Shown: piece by piece, positions 48,156 through 57,613 of the stretch
Layout: each line of letters starts with the position of its first letter
How positions within the stretch are numbered: position 1 is the stretch's first letter
Assembly (NCBI GenBank): GCA_021815925.1
Contig: JAKAZL010000008.1
Span: 1 to 58,107, forward strand
Length of the DNA: 58,107 nucleotides
Reading direction: 5' to 3'
Origin: Pseudomonadota bacterium
GTDB lineage: Bacteria; Pseudomonadota; Gammaproteobacteria; Steroidobacterales; Steroidobacteraceae
The notes under the pieces: generated by a model
The model's database searches: none
Seen by the model: only the letters and a program-made list of their open reading frames with translations
What the model was told of the DNA's origin: nothing
Made by a program: the position numbers and the translations under genes

Positions 48156-50378
48156 TCATGCGGTATGGGAATTGGAATCCGTCTCGTCGAGCTCCTCGCT
48201 GTCAGCGCGATCGCCGCGCGCATGCGCGGCGATCGTACGGCTGACGCGCGTCACGTCCGGCAGGCGGCGGATGACGCGCATCACGCGCGCCAGCTGCTTG
48301 CGGTCATGCACCTTCAGCTCGAAGGTCAGAATCGAGGCGTCCCCCTCCTGCTCCTCGATCGAGACGTGATGGATGTTGGTATCGGCGCTGGCAATGGCCG
48401 CGGCCACCCTGGCGAGCACGCCGGTGCGGTTGACCACATCGACGCGGATCTCTGAATTGAACAGCCGCTCGGGGGCGGACTGCCAGCTCACCGGCAGCCA
48501 CTTCTCGGGATGCTTGCGGTAGTCCTCGACGTTCACGCAGCGGTCGCGATGGATGACCACGCCGCGACCGGCGGAGAGAAAGGCAAACACCGGGTCGTTG
48601 GGCAACGGGAAACAGCAACGCGCGTACGTCACCAGCAGTCCCTCGGTGCCGGCGATGGCGAGCGGCGCGGCCATGGGCGCGCCCTGCTCCGCGGTGCCTG
48701 CCGGCAGGAGCCGGCGCGCCACCAGGGGCGCGAGGCGCTCGCCGAGCCCGATCTTCTCGTACAGCTCGTCCAGGTCCTTCATGCCGAGTTCCCCGAGCAT
48801 GACCTCGCGGGTCGCGGCCGGCACGCTCTCCAGGAACAGGCCGAATTCCGTCAGCGACTGCGTCAGCAGCCGCTGGCCGAGCGCGATCGCCTCGCTGCGG
48901 CGCAGGCTCTTCAGGTAGTGCCGGATGGCGCTGCGCGCCTTGGCGGTCACCACGAAGCTCACCCAGGCGGGATTGGGCACGGCGCCCTTGGCCGTGATGA
49001 TCTCGATGGTCTGGCCGTTGCGCAGCACCGTGCGCAGCGGCGTCAGACGCCGGTCCACCTTGGCGGCGACGCAGCGGTTGCCCACGTCCGTGTGCACGGC
49101 GTAGGCGAAATCCACCACGGTCGCGCCGCTCGGCAGCCGCAGGATCTTGCCCTTCGGGGTGAATACGTAGACCTTGTCGGGATACAGGTCGACCTTGACG
49201 CTCTCGAGGAACTCCTCCGAGCTGCCGTCCTCCTGCAGTTCCACCAGGCCCGAGAGCCACTCTCTGGCTCGCGCCTGCTCCATCGAGCCGGCGTCCTCGC
49301 CCGATTTGTACTTCCAGTGCGCGGCGATGCCGGACTCGGCCACGCGGTGCATGTCCTCGGTGCGGATCTGCACCTCGATCGGCACCGCGTTGGGGCCGAA
49401 CAGCGTCGTGTGCAGCGACTGGTAGCCGTTCACGCGCGGTATGGCGATGTAATCCTTGAACCGGCCGGGCATCGGCTTGAACACCGAATGCACCACGCCG
49501 ATGGCACGGTAACAGGTATCGAGCTCATCGACGATGATGCGCAGGCCGTAGACGTCCACGATTTCCGTGAGCGAGGCGCGCTTGCGCAACATCTTCTTGT
49601 AGATGCTGTAGATGTGCTTCTCGCGCGTCTCCACCCGCGCCTCGATACCGTGCTTCGCCAGGGCCGCCGACAGCTGCTGCTCGATTTTCTGCAGGAACTC
49701 CTTCTGGTTGCCACGCGCCTTGCGCAGCGCGTGCTCGAGCACGCGGTAGCGCTGCGGGTACAGCGCGCGGAAGCCGAGTTCCTCGAGTTCCAGCTTGAGG
49801 TTATACAGGCCGCAGCGCTCGGCGATCGGCGCGTAGATGTCGAGTGTCTCGCGGGCGATGGCCCGACGCCGGTGCGGCGGCATCGCCTGGATCGTGCGCA
49901 TGTTGTGCGTACGGTCGGCGAGCTTGACCAGGATGACGCGCAGGTCGCGCACCATCGCGAGCAGCATCTTGCGGAACGACTCCGCCTGCGCCTCCTCGCG
50001 ATTCTTGAACTGGATGGCATCGAGCTTGGTCACCCCGTCGACCAGCTCGGCCACGTCGGCACCGAAGCGCTCGACGAGCTGGTCCTTGGGCGTCGGGGTG
50101 TCCTCGATGACGTCGTGCAGGATCGCCGCGATCAGGGTATCGGCATCGAGGCGCAGGTCGGCGAGGATGGCCGCCGTCGCGACCGGGTGGGCGATGTACG
50201 GCTCGCCGGAGAGGCGCTTCTGCCCCTCATGCGCCGAGGCACCGAATTCCGCCGCGGCGCGGACGCGGGCGACCTGGTCGGCCGGCAGATAGCTGCCGAC
50301 GTTCGCCAGCAGCTCCTTCAGTCCCGGAGTACGCCTTCCGCCGGGAAGCAGCCCGAGGAGGGAAGACGCATAGTCCAT
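48156..50378 (-). CDS. spoT: Bifunctional (p)ppGpp synthetase/hydrolase SpoT
   Basis: A 740-residue RSH enzyme. The N-terminal HD hydrolase domain retains His-Asp-Val-Ile-Glu-Asp-Thr at 88-94, so hydrolase activity should be intact. A synthetase domain (about 240-350) carries Tyr-Gln-Ser-Leu-His-Thr and the Glu-Val-Gln-Ile-Arg-Thr strand. A TGS domain (about 410-470), a helical region and a C-terminal ACT domain (about 660-730) complete the long RSH layout. It controls the stringent response alarmone. It follows rpoZ by 56 bases, the standard gammaproteobacterial order. Confidence 0.95.
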
Positions 50379-50434: not shown

Positions 50435-50725
50435 TTACTCGCCCAGACCGAACTGGGGAGCGCGGAATGCGGACTGCATGTCCAGTTCCGGCACGTCCGG
50501 GGCGGGCGGCTCGGCCGGCGGCGGCTCCGGCTCGCGCAGCATCTCGACCGTGACGTTGCCCGCGGCGATCTCGCGCAGCGCAACCACCGTCGGCTTGTCG
50601 TTCTCGACGGCGATGGTCGGCTCGGCCCCATTGGCCAGACGCCGGGCGCGCTGCGCCGCCAGGATCACCAGCTGGAACAGGTTATCGACGTTTTGCAGGC
50701 AGTCTTCGACGGTAATGCGGGCCAT
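50435..50725 (-). CDS. rpoZ: RNA polymerase omega subunit
   Basis: A 96-residue protein beginning Met-Ala-Arg-Ile-Thr-Val-Glu-Asp-Cys, with Asn-x-Phe-x-Leu-Val and Ala-Ala-x-Arg-Ala-Arg-x-Leu in the first helices, as in E. coli omega. The C-terminal third is Pro/Glu-rich. Omega helps assemble RNA polymerase and forms part of a ppGpp site with beta-prime. It lies between gmk and spoT. Confidence 0.95.
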
Positions 50726-50781: not shown

Positions 50782-50787
50782 ACTATA
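50782..50787 (-). promoter_or_regulatory. Possible -10 element upstream of rpoZ
   Basis: TATAGT on the minus strand in the 78-base gap between gmk and rpoZ, a local AT-rich spot in GC-rich sequence. No good -35 is visible, so an extra promoter for rpoZ-spoT is only tentative. Confidence 0.35.
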
Positions 50788-50803: not shown

Positions 50804-52042
50804 TCAGGCCAGCAGCCGGGCGAGCAGCGCGGTCAGCTCCGGCCGGTAGGCGGCCAGCCCCTCCGCCCGGCCCGTGACGATGCGCACCAGATCGTCCACG
50901 GCCCGCTCGAAATCATCGTTGACCACGACGTCGTCGAACTCGCTCCAGTGCGCCATGTCGCCGACCGCCTCGTGCAGGCGCCGCTCGATCACCGCAGCGG
51001 AATCCGTGGCTCGGCCGCGCAGGCGCTGCTCGAGCGCCTCGCGCGAGGGGGGCAGGACAAAGATGGTATGGCACTCGGGCAGCGCCGCGCGCACCTGGCG
51101 GGCGCCCTGCCAGTCGATCTCGAGCACGATGTCGGTGCCCGCGGCGAGCTGCCGCTCCACCGGCTCGCGCGCGGTACCGTAGTAGTTGCCGAACACCTGG
51201 GCATGCTCGAGAAAGCGCCCCTCGGCGACCATACGCTCGAACTGCTCCACGGAGACGAAATGGTATTCGCGGCCGTCGGTCTCCGTGGCGCGCTGCGGCC
51301 GGGTGGTGTGGGAGATCGACAGGCGCAGCGCGGGCTGGCGCTCGAGCAGGGCCCGCACCAGCGAGGTCTTGCCCGCTCCCGAGGGTGCTGCGAGCACGAA
51401 CAGCTGGCCGCGCCGCGGCACCTGCGGACCCTCCGCGGCGGGCCCGGCGGCCAACAGCTCCCGGCTGCGCGCCGCGAGCTCGCGCAGCGCCTGCCCGCGA
51501 TGACTCGCGGCGTTCTTCTCCGCGGGGGTGAGCTGCGCGGCGGTCCGCGCCGATCCGAGCGGCTGAAAAATCGGGTCGTAGCCGAAACCGCCCGTGCCGC
51601 GCGGCGCGAGCGTGATGCGCCCCTCCCAGCGGCCCGTGGCGAGGAGCGGGTTCGGATCCTCGCCGCTGCGCACCAGCGCGATGACGCACTGGTAGCGTGC
51701 GCCGCGCGCCTGCTCGGGTACGCCGGCGAGTTCGGCCAGGAGCTTGCGCACATTCGCCTCGTCACTGGCGCCCTCGCCGGCGTACCGGGCCGAGAAGACG
51801 CCCGGCCGTCCCTGCAGCGCGTCGACTTCGATCCCGGAGTCATCGGCAAGCGCCGGCAGGCCGGTCAGCCGCGCCGCGTGACGCGCCTTCAGCAGCGCAT
51901 TGTCCCGAAACGTCACCCCGGTCTCGGGTGGCGTGTCGATGCCGAAGGCCGCCTGCGGCAGCACGGCGAGGCCCGAGGGAGCGAGCAGCTCCGCCAGTTC
52001 CCGGAGCTTGCCCGCGTTGCCGCTGGCCAGAACGACTTTCAC
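50804..52042 (-). CDS. rdgB-gmk: Fused XTP/dITP pyrophosphatase (RdgB) and guanylate kinase (Gmk)
   Basis: One 412-codon frame covering two normally separate enzymes. Residues 2 to about 192 are RdgB, which hydrolyses dITP and XTP to prevent mutagenic incorporation: Ser-Gly-Asn-x-Gly-Lys at 7-12, Ala-Asp-Asp-Ser-Gly at 66-70, Gly-Phe-Gly-Tyr-Asp-Pro-Ile-Phe at 152-159, and Ser-His-Arg-Gly-Gln-Ala at 180-185. Residues about 212-412 are complete Gmk, which phosphorylates GMP to GDP: P-loop Ala-Pro-Ser-Gly-Ala-Gly-Lys-Thr at 219-226, Ser-His-Thr-Thr-Arg-Pro at 244-249, and Ile-Asp-Trp-Gln-Gly at 309-313. The linker of about 20 residues has no stop. GTG 52042 overlaps the rph stop by 4 bases. An internal GTG at codon 208 could yield separate Gmk. 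Confidence 0.9.
51419..51434 (-). promoter_or_regulatory. Internal ribosome binding site and GTG start for Gmk inside the fusion
   Basis: GGAGG at 51434-51430 on the minus strand, an 8-base spacer, then GTG at 51421-51419 in frame. Translation from here would give a 205-residue Gmk beginning close to the usual family start, before Gly-Gln-Leu-Phe-Val-Leu. It suggests a recent loss of the rdgB stop or dual products. Confidence 0.5.
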
Positions 52043-52758
52043 GCCTCGATGGCCCGGCTCTGCAGCGGGAACAGCCGCTCGATGCCGCCGGCGGCGAGCG
52101 CGAGCATCGCGTCGAGCTCGTGCCGACGGAAGGCGTGGCCCTCGGCCGTGCCCTGCACTTCGATGAACGCACCGCCGTCGTTCATCACCACGTTCATGTC
52201 CACCTCGGCCTGCGAGTCCTCCGCGTAATCCAGGTCGAGCACCGGGAGTCCGCCGACGATACCGACCGAGACGGCCGCCACCTGGCCGTGCAGCGGCGTG
52301 CGGGCTATCAGCCGCCGACGCTCCAGTGCCCGGCACGCCTGCGCCAGGGCGACGAAGCCGCCGGCGATCGAGGCCGTACGGGTGCCGCCATCGGCCTGCA
52401 GGACGTCGCAGTCGACGGTGACGGTGCGCTCCCCGAGCGCCTTCAGATCGACCACGGCGCGCAGCGAGCGGCCGATCAGGCGCTGAATCTCCAGGGTGCG
52501 GCCACTCTGCTTGCCGCGAGCCGCCTCACGCGCCGAGCGCGTATGGGTCGCGCGCGGCAGCATGCCGTACTCGGCGGTGATCCAGCCCTGGCCCTTGCCG
52601 CGCAGAAACGCCGGCACGGTCTCCTCGACACTGGCGGTGCACAGCACCTGGGTATCGCCGAACTCGACCAGCACCGCCCCCTCGGCATGCTTGGCGAAGC
52701 GGCGCGTGAAGGTCACGGGCCGCATCTGGTCGGCATCGCGTCCACTCGGTCGGGTCAT
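52039..52758 (-). CDS. rph: Ribonuclease PH
   Basis: A 239-residue phosphorolytic 3'-5' exoribonuclease that trims tRNA 3' ends. It starts with Arg-Pro-Ser-Gly-Arg, has Gly-x-Gly-Trp-Ile-Thr-Ala-Glu-Tyr near 55-63, Thr-His-Thr-Arg near 71, and [15 protein letters not shown] near 85-99. [14 protein letters not shown] lies near 115-128, all RNase PH hallmarks. Full length. It overlaps the rdgB-gmk GTG by 4 bases and lies 14 bases after the PP2C gene. Confidence 0.96.
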
Positions 52759-52772
52759 CTGTGCGCTCGCTG

Positions 52773-53522
52773 CTATTTATCGCCGAGCCACCGCAATGCG
52801 GCAGCCGAGGTGTTGTCACTGCCGCTACCGGCGCGCCGCACGGCCCGCCGGGCCAGCTCGAGCACCTTCTCGCGCAGTGGCGCGGGAGGTGGACCGAACT
52901 CGCTCGCGAGCTCCTCGTCCTTCAGCGGCCCCCAGAGGCCATCGCTGCACACGAGCAGCACGTCGCCGGATTCGAGCGGCCGGCGGCGCGTGAGCGCCAT
53001 GTCGGGCAGAATCGGGCCGCCGCCGAGGCAGCATTCAACATAATTGCGCATCGGATGGGCCTGTGCCTGCTCGGCGGTGATCAGTCCCTCGCGCAGCAGC
53101 CCCTCGACGTGACTGTGGTCACGGCTGCGCCCGACGAGCTTCGCGCCGCGCACGTGGTAGATGCGGCTGTCGCCGATATGCGCCCACCAGGATGCGCCGT
53201 GCTGCACCAGGCACAGCGCGCAGGTGGCGCGCGGGCGCTGGTCGATTGGCGCATCGGCGCCGAGCTTTACGACCGCATCGTGTGCGCGGCCGAGCGTCAG
53301 GTGCAGAAACCCCAGTGGGTCGAACAGTGGCTGCGCGGTCTGCCGGAACGCCTCGATGATGGTCTGCCGGGCGACTTCCGCGGCGCGTCCGCCATCGGCA
53401 TAGCCGCCCATGCCGTCGACGACGAGCAGCAGCGCCGCGTGCTCGCTCACCGAGACCGCAACCCGGTCCTGATTCTCCCCGCGTCCGCCCTGCAGGCTGA
53501 CGTCGGCGTAGTCGATCCGCAA
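52773..53522 (-). CDS. PP2C-family serine/threonine protein phosphatase
   Basis: A 249-residue metal-dependent phosphatase. PPM motifs: Asn-Gln-Asp-Arg near residue 17, Val-Val-Asp-Gly-Met-Gly-Gly near 34-40, His-Ile-Gly-Asp-Ser-Arg-Ile-Tyr near 114-121, Cys-Ser-Asp-Gly-Leu-Trp near 192, and Gly-Ser-Asp-Asn-Thr-Ser near 235. No membrane segment or sensor domain. It starts at TTG 53522, giving Met-Arg-Ile-Asp-Tyr; no better start is visible. It heads the minus-strand run PP2C-rph-rdgB-gmk-rpoZ-spoT and is divergent from yicC. No partner kinase gene lies in the window. Confidence 0.9.
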
Positions 53523-53598
53523 TTGACGCCCGTATATCTGTTAAAGTTCGGGGCCCGCTTTATATCACCCCAGGCCGCCGGGAGCGTAGCGTTTCCAC
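53523..53598. promoter_or_regulatory. Divergent promoter region between PP2C and yicC
   Basis: A 76-base gap that is clearly AT-richer than its surroundings, with GATATA-like and TTTATAT stretches facing both ways. It probably holds divergent promoters, but no clear -35/-10 pair stands out. Confidence 0.4.
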
Positions 53599-54462
53599 TT
53601 GATTTCCAGCATGACAGGCTTCGCTCGGCGCGAGAGCTCCGGACCCTGGGGCAGTCTCGTGTGCGAGCTGCGCAGCGTCAATCACCGGTTTCTCGAAACC
53701 GGCTTCAGACTGCCCGAGGAGCTGCGCGCGGCGGAAGGGGATCTGCGCCAGCGCCTCGCCCAAGAGGTGCGGCGCGGCAAGGTCGACTGCACGCTCACCT
53801 ACCGGCCGACGCAGGCCTCGGCGGCGAGCCTTGAGGTGGACACGCTTGCGCTCGAGCGACTCACCGGCCGCATCGGCGAGCTCGGCCGGGCCTTCCCGGC
53901 CGGCTCGGTGAACCTGCTCGAGGTCCTGCGCTGGCCCGGCATCCTGAAGGACCCCGGTACCGGTGGCGAGGCGCTGCTCGCGGCGGCCCGGGAGCTGTTC
54001 GAGGACGCGGTGGCGGAGCTGTGCGCGGCGCGCAACCGCGAGGGAGAGAAGCTGCGCGAGGTGCTCGAGCAGCGCTGCGCGGCGCTCGAGGTCCTGGTCA
54101 AGCAGGTCCAGGGACGCCTCCCCGAGGTGCAGGCCCGCCTCACCACGCGGGTCCGTGATCGGATCAAGGAGCTCGCCGCAGGGGCCGACCCGGACCGGCT
54201 CGAGCAGGAGATCGCGCTCCTGCTGCAGCGACTCGATGTCGATGAGGAGCTCGAGCGGCTCGCGGGCCACATCACGGAGGTCCGCCGCGTGCTCACGGGG
54301 CGTGAGCCGGCCGGCCGGCGGCTCGACTTCCTGATGCAGGAGCTGAACCGCGAGGCCAATACGCTCTCCTCGAAGTCGCAGGACCTCGAGACCACGCGCT
54401 GCGCGGTGGACATGAAGGTCCTGATCGAACAGATGCGCGAGCAGGTGCAGAACGCGGAATAG
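53599..54462 (+). CDS. yicC: YicC-family endoribonuclease
   Basis: A 287-residue protein with the YicC N-terminal domain (about 1-160: Ser-Met-Thr-Gly-Phe-Ala-Arg, then Arg-Ser-Val-Asn-His-Arg-Phe near 26-32) and the C-terminal DUF1732 domain (about 200-287, ending with Glu-Ala-Asn-Thr-Leu-x-Ser-Lys). YicC-type proteins are RNases reported to act on small RNAs. TTG 53599 is chosen because it gives the family's usual Met-Ile-x-Ser-Met-Thr start; ATG 53611 would truncate it. In many relatives gmk follows yicC directly; here they are separated and on opposite strands. Confidence 0.95.
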   Translation: MISSMTGFARRESSGPWGSLVCELRSVNHRFLETGFRLPEELRAAEGDLRQRLAQEVRRGKVDCTLTYRPTQASAASLEVDTLALERLTGRIGELGRAFPAGSVNLLEVLRWPGILKDPGTGGEALLAAARELFEDAVAELCAARNREGEKLREVLEQRCAALEVLVKQVQGRLPEVQARLTTRVRDRIKELAAGADPDRLEQEIALLLQRLDVDEELERLAGHITEVRRVLTGREPAGRRLDFLMQELNREANTLSSKSQDLETTRCAVDMKVLIEQMREQVQNAE

Positions 54463-55791: not shown

Positions 55792-56328
55792 CTATCGATC
55801 GAGCGCCAGCATCCTGACGAAACCGGCGATCCGCTCGGCTTCGGCGCTGGTCAGGTCATTCGGAATATTGATCAGAGTTACGACAACGCCTGGCCGAACG
55901 GGAACCGAAGAACGATAGGTTCCCGCAACGTCGTCCGGGGCTTGTTCCGTGGCGTCCCTTGTCACGGGCTCGCTGTTGGCGGACCCCTTGTCCTTCTTGC
56001 GTGGCGCGCTGGTGGTGCGGGTCTTGATCGTGAAGTTCGCGGGATCCTCGCGCCAGTTGAGGAACAACTCGACCGCGCGCCGAACCCGGCGGCCGTACTC
56101 CTTTAACGACGTGGGATTGAAATCCTTGGCGCGCTTGTTCGTGAAGCGCTTGATGGCCGTGTCGAGGTCCAACTGGCTCAGGTCGGCCTTCTCATCGTCA
56201 GAGAGGATGGCGAGGACATTTCTCGTCGCGACGGCCAGGGCCTGGGCGGTGGCTGCCGGCATGAGCCCCTTGTCGCCGGCATGGTCAAGAAATTCCAGCA
56301 GATCGTCCGCCGAGTACCCATTTGCCAT
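55792..56328 (-). CDS. RM-locus-associated protein with recombinase SAM-like domain
   Basis: A 178-residue protein from ATG 56328. The first 110 residues are helical with a pattern like the N-terminal core-binding domain of tyrosine recombinases (Thr-Ala-x-x-Tyr/Leu-x-x-Arg-Val-x-x-Ala), including Lys-Glu-Tyr-Gly-Arg-Arg-Val-Arg-Arg-Ala near 75. A charged linker and a short Val-Val-Thr-Leu-Ile-Asn-Ile-Pro strand with Ala-Glu-Arg-Ile-Ala follow. No catalytic recombinase domain is present. Similar short proteins precede hsdM in some type I systems, as this one does (9 bases before the relic). Its role there is unknown to me, perhaps regulation. Confidence 0.6.
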   Translation of the reverse strand: MANGYSADDLLEFLDHAGDKGLMPAATAQALAVATRNVLAILSDDEKADLSQLDLDTAIKRFTNKRAKDFNPTSLKEYGRRVRRAVELFLNWREDPANFTIKTRTTSAPRKKDKGSANSEPVTRDATEQAPDDVAGTYRSSVPVRPGVVVTLINIPNDLTSAEAERIAGFVRMLALDR

Positions 56329-56380
56329 GACAATATTCCTACGGTATATTGGCTGCCAGACGGAAATATAACGTATTGAT
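56329..56380. promoter_or_regulatory. AT-rich divergent promoter region
   Basis: The 52 bases between the divergent SAM-like gene and the ATPase gene are much AT-richer than the genome around them and contain GGTATATTGG and AAATATAAC. Divergent -10 elements are likely, but no full consensus pair can be fixed. Confidence 0.45.
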
Positions 56381-57613
56381 ATGGCCGACGCAAACATCCA
56401 CTACCCGCGGGTCATTCAGCCCCAGCTGAGTGCCGACCTGACGCTGTACCCCGTGGTTGCGGTGATGGGGGCGCGGCAGGTCGGCAAAAGCACTATCTGC
56501 CAGGAAATCGCTGAAGCACAGGACTTCGCGCGGCGAACGCTCGATGACCGCGACGTTCGCGAACAGGCCATTGCGGACCCCGAAGGGTTCCTGGCGGACC
56601 TCGGCGACGGTGGGGCTTTCATCGACGAGGTGCAACGGGCTCCGGACCTGATGCTGGCCATCAAGGCTGTCGTCGATCGGGACGGGCGAATGGGCCAATA
56701 CCTGGTCAGCGGGTCGAACCAGCCCAATGTCGGTCAGTCCGTCAGTGACTCCCTGGTGGGGCGCGCAACGTACCGCACGCTCCGGCCCCTGACGCTGAGC
56801 GAACTGCGCTTCGACGAGGAACTCCGGGGCTGGAGCTTCCTGTTCGGTCCCGACGAAGCTGCGGTGATCGCCGAGCTTGAACGACGGGCCGCCTCCAGCG
56901 GGGCCTTGGATTGGCAAGCCGTCGTCAGGACGGGAGGGTTCCCTCGGGCCGTGGCAGCCCCCGCGGATCAGCGCCTGCGGGTACTCGACGACTACGTGGA
57001 GATCTTTTCCCGCCGCGACATCCTGGAGATCCTCGAAGTCGAGTCAGCTCCGCGACTGGAAGCCTTCGTGCGACTGACGGCCGCAAGAACCGGGCAGGAA
57101 CTCAATGTGACTGGCCTGTCCAACGACCTGGGCACACCGGTCACCACCATCCGGCGATGGCTTGAAGCGCTCCAACGCAGCTATCTCATCGAACTCATCC
57201 CGCCGTATTCGAGAAATTCAGGGCAGCGTGTGATCAAGGCGCCGAAGCTGTACAGCGTCGATGCCGCGCTCGCCCTGGCGGCCTCGCGCGAGACCGCCCC
57301 GACGGGCTTCCACCTGGAGACCCTGATTGCCAGCGACTTGCTCGTCTGGCGGGATGGCTCGCCGTCCCGTGATCTCCACCACTGGCGACTGAGCTCAGGT
57401 CAGGAGGTCGATTTCATTCTGGAGGAGAACGGGCAGCTGCTACCCGTCGAGGTCAAGGCGGGCAACTCGGTCGGTGCAGACGAAGCGCGGCACCTGGTCA
57501 CTTTTCGCGAACGTCACGCGAATACGCCGCGGGCTGTCTTGCTGAGTTGCGATCCGCAGATCAGAGTCATCAGGCCGGGCATACTTGCGTGTCCGTGGTG
57601 GGCGGTCATGTGA
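56381..57613 (+). CDS. AAA_14/DUF4143 ATPase
   Basis: A 410-residue protein. The N-terminal AAA domain has Walker A Gly-Ala-Arg-Gln-Val-Gly-Lys-Ser-Thr at 30-38, Walker B Phe-Ile-Asp-Glu-Val-Gln at 80-85 and a sensor Val-Ser-Gly-Ser-Asn. A winged-helix segment follows near 245-275, and the C-terminal DUF4143 domain contains a Glu-Val-Asp-Phe-Ile-Leu ... Val-Glu-Val-Lys-Ala-Gly pattern (near 345-365) like a PD-(D/E)xK nuclease core. These ATPases are common in accessory regions; their exact role is not settled. It may be defence- or stability-related, but that is inference from location. Confidence 0.88.
   Translation: MADANIHYPRVIQPQLSADLTLYPVVAVMGARQVGKSTICQEIAEAQDFARRTLDDRDVREQAIADPEGFLADLGDGGAFIDEVQRAPDLMLAIKAVVDRDGRMGQYLVSGSNQPNVGQSVSDSLVGRATYRTLRPLTLSELRFDEELRGWSFLFGPDEAAVIAELERRAASSGALDWQAVVRTGGFPRAVAAPADQRLRVLDDYVEIFSRRDILEILEVESAPRLEAFVRLTAARTGQELNVTGLSNDLGTPVTTIRRWLEALQRSYLIELIPPYSRNSGQRVIKAPKLYSVDAALALAASRETAPTGFHLETLIASDLLVWRDGSPSRDLHHWRLSSGQEVDFILEENGQLLPVEVKAGNSVGADEARHLVTFRERHANTPRAVLLSCDPQIRVIRPGILACPWWAVM

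Follow-up and report, generated by a model that had tools for sequence, protein, structure and literature searches.

RdgB and guanylate kinase appear to be made as a single bifunctional protein in a group of uncultured bacteria, probably Steroidobacteraceae

RdgB, which destroys damaged purine nucleotides, and guanylate kinase (Gmk), which is needed for the making of GTP, are usually separate proteins in bacteria. The locus described here raises the question of whether the two can be made as one protein, and of how such an arrangement could have come about. The window, i.e. the whole 58,107-nucleotide stretch of DNA that was analyzed, contains on its minus strand a reading frame that runs from a GTG codon at position 52042 to a TGA codon at positions 50806-50804 and comprises 412 codons with no internal stops (the fused rdgB-gmk gene, 50804..52042). 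Its 412-residue product consists of a complete RdgB (residues 1-191), a linker of ~20 residues and a complete Gmk (residues 212-412), an arrangement that an earlier note on this DNA had claimed and that both the reading of the frame and the Pfam matches confirm. Within its own genome (2.73 Mb in 143 contigs, 93.8% complete) the RdgB and Gmk families have a single match each, and both matches lie in the fused gene; the two genes also form one open frame in 28 further genomes. Judged from these sequences, RdgB and Gmk appear to be made as a single bifunctional protein in a group of uncultured bacteria that are probably Steroidobacteraceae.

The RdgB/ITPase domain (51470..52042, minus strand) was assigned to residues 1-191 from its match to PF01725 and its alignment with E. 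coli RdgB. The Pfam family Ham1p_like (PF01725) matches residues 3-191 over positions 1-185 of its 186-position profile (E = 1.6e-63, 214 bits versus a cut-off of 22.5), and residues 2-189 align without gaps, over 188 residues, with the solved structure of E. coli RdgB (1k7k). The NCBIfam model for RdgB/HAM1 (TIGR00042) scores 175 versus a curated cut-off of 145; the narrower NCBIfam model NF011397 scores 209, which is below its own cut-off of 234. The catalytic positions N9, K12, E40, K52, D67, D68, FGYD 153-156 and SHR 180-182 are invariant in 29/29 fused proteins. Apart from N9 and K12, we take the roles of these residues to be those of their counterparts in the E. coli enzyme (DDSG, FGYD and SHR). 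N9 and K12 correspond to N10 and K13 of E. coli RdgB, whose roles are described in PMC8893687.

The guanylate kinase domain (50807..51409, minus strand; PF00625) occupies residues 212-412 and includes the P-loop SGAGKT as well as the C-terminal tail. The Pfam family Guanylate_kin (PF00625) matches residues 213-389 over positions 3-179 of its 182-position profile (E = 7.3e-51, 173 bits versus a cut-off of 25.2), the NCBIfam guanylate kinase model TIGR03263 scores 238 versus a curated cut-off of 160, and residues 211-412 align with E. coli Gmk (2an9), covering residues 3-206 of its 207-residue chain. All 29 fused proteins have G222, K225, T226, R248, R251, E279, Y288, T290, D310, R344 and R355 in common, which we take to serve in the P-loop and in GMP binding. 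The Gmk half is probably active, since it is the sole gmk found in its own genome.

An open frame of this kind could also result from an assembly or sequencing error that removed a stop codon or a frameshift, and two features of the record would suit such an error, as the genome is divided into 143 contigs and the junction is GC-rich. The earlier note had proposed that the fused length be sought in relatives, and had named a hidden stop or frameshift, or relatives that all have separate genes, as findings that would speak against a fusion. Neither was found; the frame recurs in 28 other assemblies that are 66-100% identical over the protein and mostly differ in their linkers, and with so many assemblies carrying it an error is vanishingly improbable and was rejected. 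The 58 genomes of the genus divide into 29 with one open fused frame, 22 with separate genes, one that is ambiguous, five that are uninformative (four have no match, and G044 has 41 residues at a contig end) and G020, in which the frame stays open across the rdgB-gmk junction on both of two contig fragments and which is the 30th genome (G denotes genomes and L loci). Pfam matches for both domains are present in 29/29 fused proteins. A search of the 29 fused genomes gave no further gmk or rdgB with a full score, and six of them have a weak second match with 29-33% identity. Among named records the fusion is carried by JAKCEJ010000003.1 (G008), JAJYDK010000034.1 and JANWJS010000001.1 (G032), all three of which are MAGs.

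Three other genomes have junctions that deserve separate description. The two G020 contigs, L041 and L042, differ in their linkers, and directly behind the P-loop one contig runs into unrelated sequence; G020 is probably a mixed MAG. In G033 (L047 / L214) the gmk frame takes in the rdgB C-terminus with its SHR and a long linker in which an ATG is preserved, and the rdgB body lies in a different frame; this may be due to a frameshift or an assembly error, and the locus may represent a further fusion or a broken one. In G046 (L032 / L211) rdgB terminates at its usual stop, the frame that opens at the old ATG closes again after 7 codons, and a later GTG seems to be the gmk start; start-like stretches are repeated at this junction.

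The occurrence of the fusion outside the genus was surveyed in sets of genomes that overlap and that each sample part of their group. The family survey (200 genomes, 159 of them outside the genus) contained no RdgB-spanning fusion outside the genus among the matches listed; in seven of its longest rows, three stop-free and four with a stop, the stretch has no RdgB match, and YicC is upstream in four. With at most four candidates scored per genome, the fusion was found in 0/368 other genomes of the class (E<=1e-88), in 0/397 other genomes of the phylum (E<=1e-80) and in 0/388 genomes of the phylum to which an Alkalibacillus genome belongs (E<=1e-62, a survey run without a positive control). The order survey (396 genomes, at most four candidates each) gave 23 genomes with a match at E<=1e-100, all of them from the genus that carries the fusion and including G046 with its stops. 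In a scan of named genomes, 18 of the 80 loci listed have both genes, three fused (L066-L068) and 15 on opposite strands. The earlier note had known of no well-described RdgB-Gmk fusion, and none is described among the literature matches listed, which cover the full text of open-licence papers; the main text of PMC4921024 contains none of the terms 'guanylate', 'gmk', 'rdgb' or 'ham1'. The fusion may be a new architecture of known enzymes, possibly one that is already present, unremarked, in automatic protein databases.

The genes that surround the fusion carry a record of how it may have originated. Domain matches in the neighboring genes agree with the earlier note in placing the fused gene upstream of rpoZ (50435..50725, minus strand; PF01192) and spoT (RelA/SpoT family, 48156..50378, minus strand; Pfam). 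On its other side are rph (RNase PH, 52039..52758, minus strand; Pfam), which has a 4-nt GTGA overlap with the start of rdgB, and a PP2C-family phosphatase gene (52773..53522, minus strand; PF13672), which is the first gene of the presumed operon. The divergent yicC (53599..54462, plus strand; Pfam) follows, and would be the upstream neighbor of gmk in the ancestral order, as judged from synteny. Beside yicC lies a gene for a protein with an Mrr N-terminal domain (PF14338; 54763-55569, minus strand), and after it a 201-aa frame that matches no Pfam family (55792-56397); together these form a possible island beside the locus. In the unfused loci L033, L034, L044 and L051 (G001, G002, G025 and G043), rpoZ-spoT is absent from the stretch or more than 1 kb from gmk.

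In the outgroup loci L058 and L061-L063 the gene order is rdgB, rph and PP2C on the minus strand and then yicC and gmk on the plus strand. The same order is found in G010 (L037), a genome of the same genus, but with 5 kb between yicC and gmk. In 20/22 genomes with separate genes, rdgB stands directly before gmk in the same orientation, the exceptions being G005, where the two are on different contigs, and G010. The yicC gene is visible in 16 of those 20 genomes and always points the opposite way; it is also inverted in this locus, in L042 and in L066-L068, and the remaining fused loci end short of it. Most separate relatives have a 4-nt ATGA overlap between rdgB and gmk, and the distance from the rdgB stop to the gmk match downstream is 207 nt in G038 and 179 nt in G050. 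The synteny suggests that rdgB and gmk are adjacent because of one inversion of the yicC-PP2C-rph-rdgB segment, after which rdgB would have stood immediately ahead of gmk on the same strand, and gmk would no longer have been part of the yicC transcript. The course of the inversion within the genus is only partly traced, because G005 and G010 fall into one group together with G038 and G050 (support 97). The earlier note had held that the fusion arises naturally where rph-rdgB adjoins gmk-rpoZ-spoT; the adjacency itself stands, but not its standing as the natural or usual state, as the outgroups have the divergent arrangement and an inversion would explain the other.

Two independent fusions were suggested by FastTree, which on RdgB nests four unfused genomes (G010, G033, G038 and G050) within the smallest clade that contains the fused RdgBs (support 0.935) and splits the fused genomes on Gmk (0.649) and on RdgB and Gmk together (0.483). 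This origin was not upheld by IQ-TREE, in trees that contained 28 of the 30 fused genomes (all except G013 and G020). The 28 form one clade with support 100 in the tree of five neighboring proteins (YicC, PP2C, Rph, RpoZ and SpoT; 49 taxa), with support 100 when all seven proteins are used and with support 89 for RdgB and Gmk together. An RpoB tree that contained 18 fused genomes gave the fused clade a support of 77, and on this tree the branch of G010 is very long (1.6), probably as a result of contamination. A single fusion, with no reversal seen, is the most likely reading of these trees; in one clade, the stop of rdgB and the start of gmk would have been lost and the two frames joined.

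The separate loci also indicate how gmk may have been transcribed before the frames were joined. In 15/15 overlap-type separate loci tested, the final codons of rdgB contain the hexamer TATATT 7-8 nt before the gmk ATG. The hexamer is read there in two frames (GYIAAP and GVYSRP are examples), and apart from it TATATT occurs on neither strand in the 80,616 bp of these 15 loci, in which TAT makes up 13% of Tyr codons and ATT 6% of Ile codons. The count covers 15 of the 17 overlap-type loci; of the two left out, G027 has TATATT and G016 has TATAGT at the same place. TATATT before gmk was recorded in the unfused relatives at L033, L034, L039, L040, L043-L046, L048, L050-L052 and L054-L057, and G033, G038 and G050 showed none before gmk. 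This hexamer is likely the -10 box of a leaderless gmk transcript, kept at the level of the DNA, and none of the 29 fused genes has it within the 84 nt that precede the P-loop. A box scan located two further hexamers in this locus. The first, TATAAA (53559..53564, minus strand), is a candidate -10 box before PP2C-rph-rdgB-gmk and is present ~42 nt before PP2C in 25/28 fused and 15/15 separate loci (19 hexamers sought, no shuffled control); the three loci that lack it, L186, L189 and L210, are on contigs that break off close to PP2C or within it. The second, TATAGT (50782..50787, minus strand), is a candidate -10 box of rpoZ-spoT; this hexamer or a variant of it is found 33-65 nt before the rpoZ match in 28/28 fused and 15/15 separate loci (also with no shuffled control), and rpoZ-spoT may therefore have its own promoter. 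Because a consensus scan of the locus found no sigma-70-type site, these boxes, which are resemblances in sequence, are rated as candidates only. The simplest reading is that the fusion moved gmk onto the PP2C-rph-rdgB transcript, and Gmk would now be made mainly or only within the fusion, in a 1:1 ratio with RdgB, from the promoter before PP2C-rph.

To what extent the product stays in one piece depends on the linker (51410..51469, minus strand), which comprises ~20 residues (192-211). Over residues 190-210 the fused proteins have a mean pairwise identity of 0.27 and a median NG86 dN/dS of 0.95 (391 usable of 406 pairs, 29 genes); the median pairwise dN/dS is 0.17 in the RdgB domain and 0.17 in the Gmk domain (29 fused genes). 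By this codon measure both domains are under purifying selection, and the linker is near neutral yet its frame is kept. Linker length takes five values, and the tree of the 28 fused genomes requires five or more changes, all of them multiples of three. In the linker region 0 of 744 codons in frame are stops; the absence of stops is not evidence by itself, as the other frames there also have few (1-7 of 715-744). An internal GTG (51419..51421, minus strand) could serve as a start for free Gmk, as it has GGAGG at 51434-51430 with a spacing of 8 nt and is in frame, 11 codons before APSGAGKT; free Gmk could therefore also be started in this genome. The frame could thus be open while the cell also or mainly makes free Gmk by initiation at GTG 51421, or cleaves the linker, whose flexible and unconstrained appearance would permit this. 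However, the GTG with GGAGG occurs only in this genome (G000) and the near-identical G013 (2/29), 5/29 fused genes have no ATG, GTG or TTG at all between SHRG and the P-loop, and a start with a Shine-Dalgarno match of at least 4 nt is present in that interval in 6/29, this gene included, and missing in 23/29. No independent Gmk start between SHRG and the P-loop is common to the 29 fused genes, and we consider production of free Gmk, or cleavage, unlikely. A real bifunctional protein, with an intact RdgB, a flexible and nearly unconstrained linker and an intact Gmk, and with a history of a single inversion and fusion, is in our estimate highly probable; it would act as two autonomous enzyme domains on a tether.

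Such a protein need not have been selected for. With rdgB and gmk already side by side on a single transcript, losing the stop could have been harmless and the fusion a neutral accident, an account that is compatible with the bifunctional protein proposed above and that we consider rather probable. It is consistent with the probable single origin, the near-neutral linker, the adjacency and overlap in relatives, and the fused genes themselves, from which the TATATT box is gone and the starts are mostly gone; a neutral fusion would not easily be undone, as gmk would by then lack a start and a promoter of its own. Against it may be set the persistence of the fusion across RpoB identities down to 0.91 within the clade, although this does not separate a neutral from a selected origin.

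RdgB is a pyrophosphatase of non-canonical purine NTPs whose products are IMP, XMP and dIMP, and substrate channeling between the domains is unlikely because these products are not the regular substrate of Gmk. Selection could have acted through another form of coupling, in which the tethered RdgB clears ITP and XTP near their source, or in which RdgB dimerization changes the assembly or control of Gmk. The proposed source is side reactions of Gmk on IMP and XMP, which are plausible and would lead via Ndk to ITP and XTP. Such coupling would fit the absence of any reversal in the 28 fused genomes on the tree and the fact that both partners are nucleotide-pool enzymes; in addition, Gmk assembly is reported in PMC6783271 to determine (p)ppGpp sensitivity. 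However, a linker dN/dS near 0.95 shows no constraint on the linker, and no fusion was seen in the surveys outside the genus, so that we regard selected coupling as quite improbable. A fuller version, in which the fusion is a selected sanitation-synthesis unit that tethers Gmk to the RdgB dimer, alters its assembly or control and removes non-canonical purines arising from the GMP to GDP step, would be more doubtful still. The claim of the earlier note that the locus sits at the center of (p)ppGpp control is unsupported, as rpoZ-spoT may have its own promoter and PMC6783271 reports that Gmk is not inhibited by (p)ppGpp in Proteobacteria.

In these bacteria an essential kinase is now apparently without its own start and promoter and forms the second half of a house-cleaning enzyme, an architecture that would naturally tether pool sanitation to GTP synthesis. 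Because the ancestral order, the inverted order, the overlap and the fusion are all found in one genus, the steps that lead from divergent operons to one protein are readable and can be tested.

Each half of the fusion closely resembles a known enzyme. The RdgB half shares with E. coli RdgB (1k7k, 2pyu) a full Ham1 domain and its catalytic residues, whereas its C-terminus does not end but runs on into the linker and Gmk. Similarly, the Gmk half shares with E. coli Gmk (2an9) the full domain, the P-loop, the GMP-binding motifs and the C-terminal tail, whereas its N-terminus is tethered to RdgB and the fused genes have no conserved start codon for it. Ham1 domains joined to other proteins are also known. 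The model NF002698 (328 positions) describes a Ham1 domain joined to another stretch, and the RdgB half described here matches its positions 130-316; in NIb-HAM1 of some potyvirids, according to PMC8893687, Ham1 is joined to a polymerase to give a polymerase-pyrophosphatase. In both cases the partner is not guanylate kinase, but the Ham1 domain is covalently joined to it, as it would be to Gmk here.
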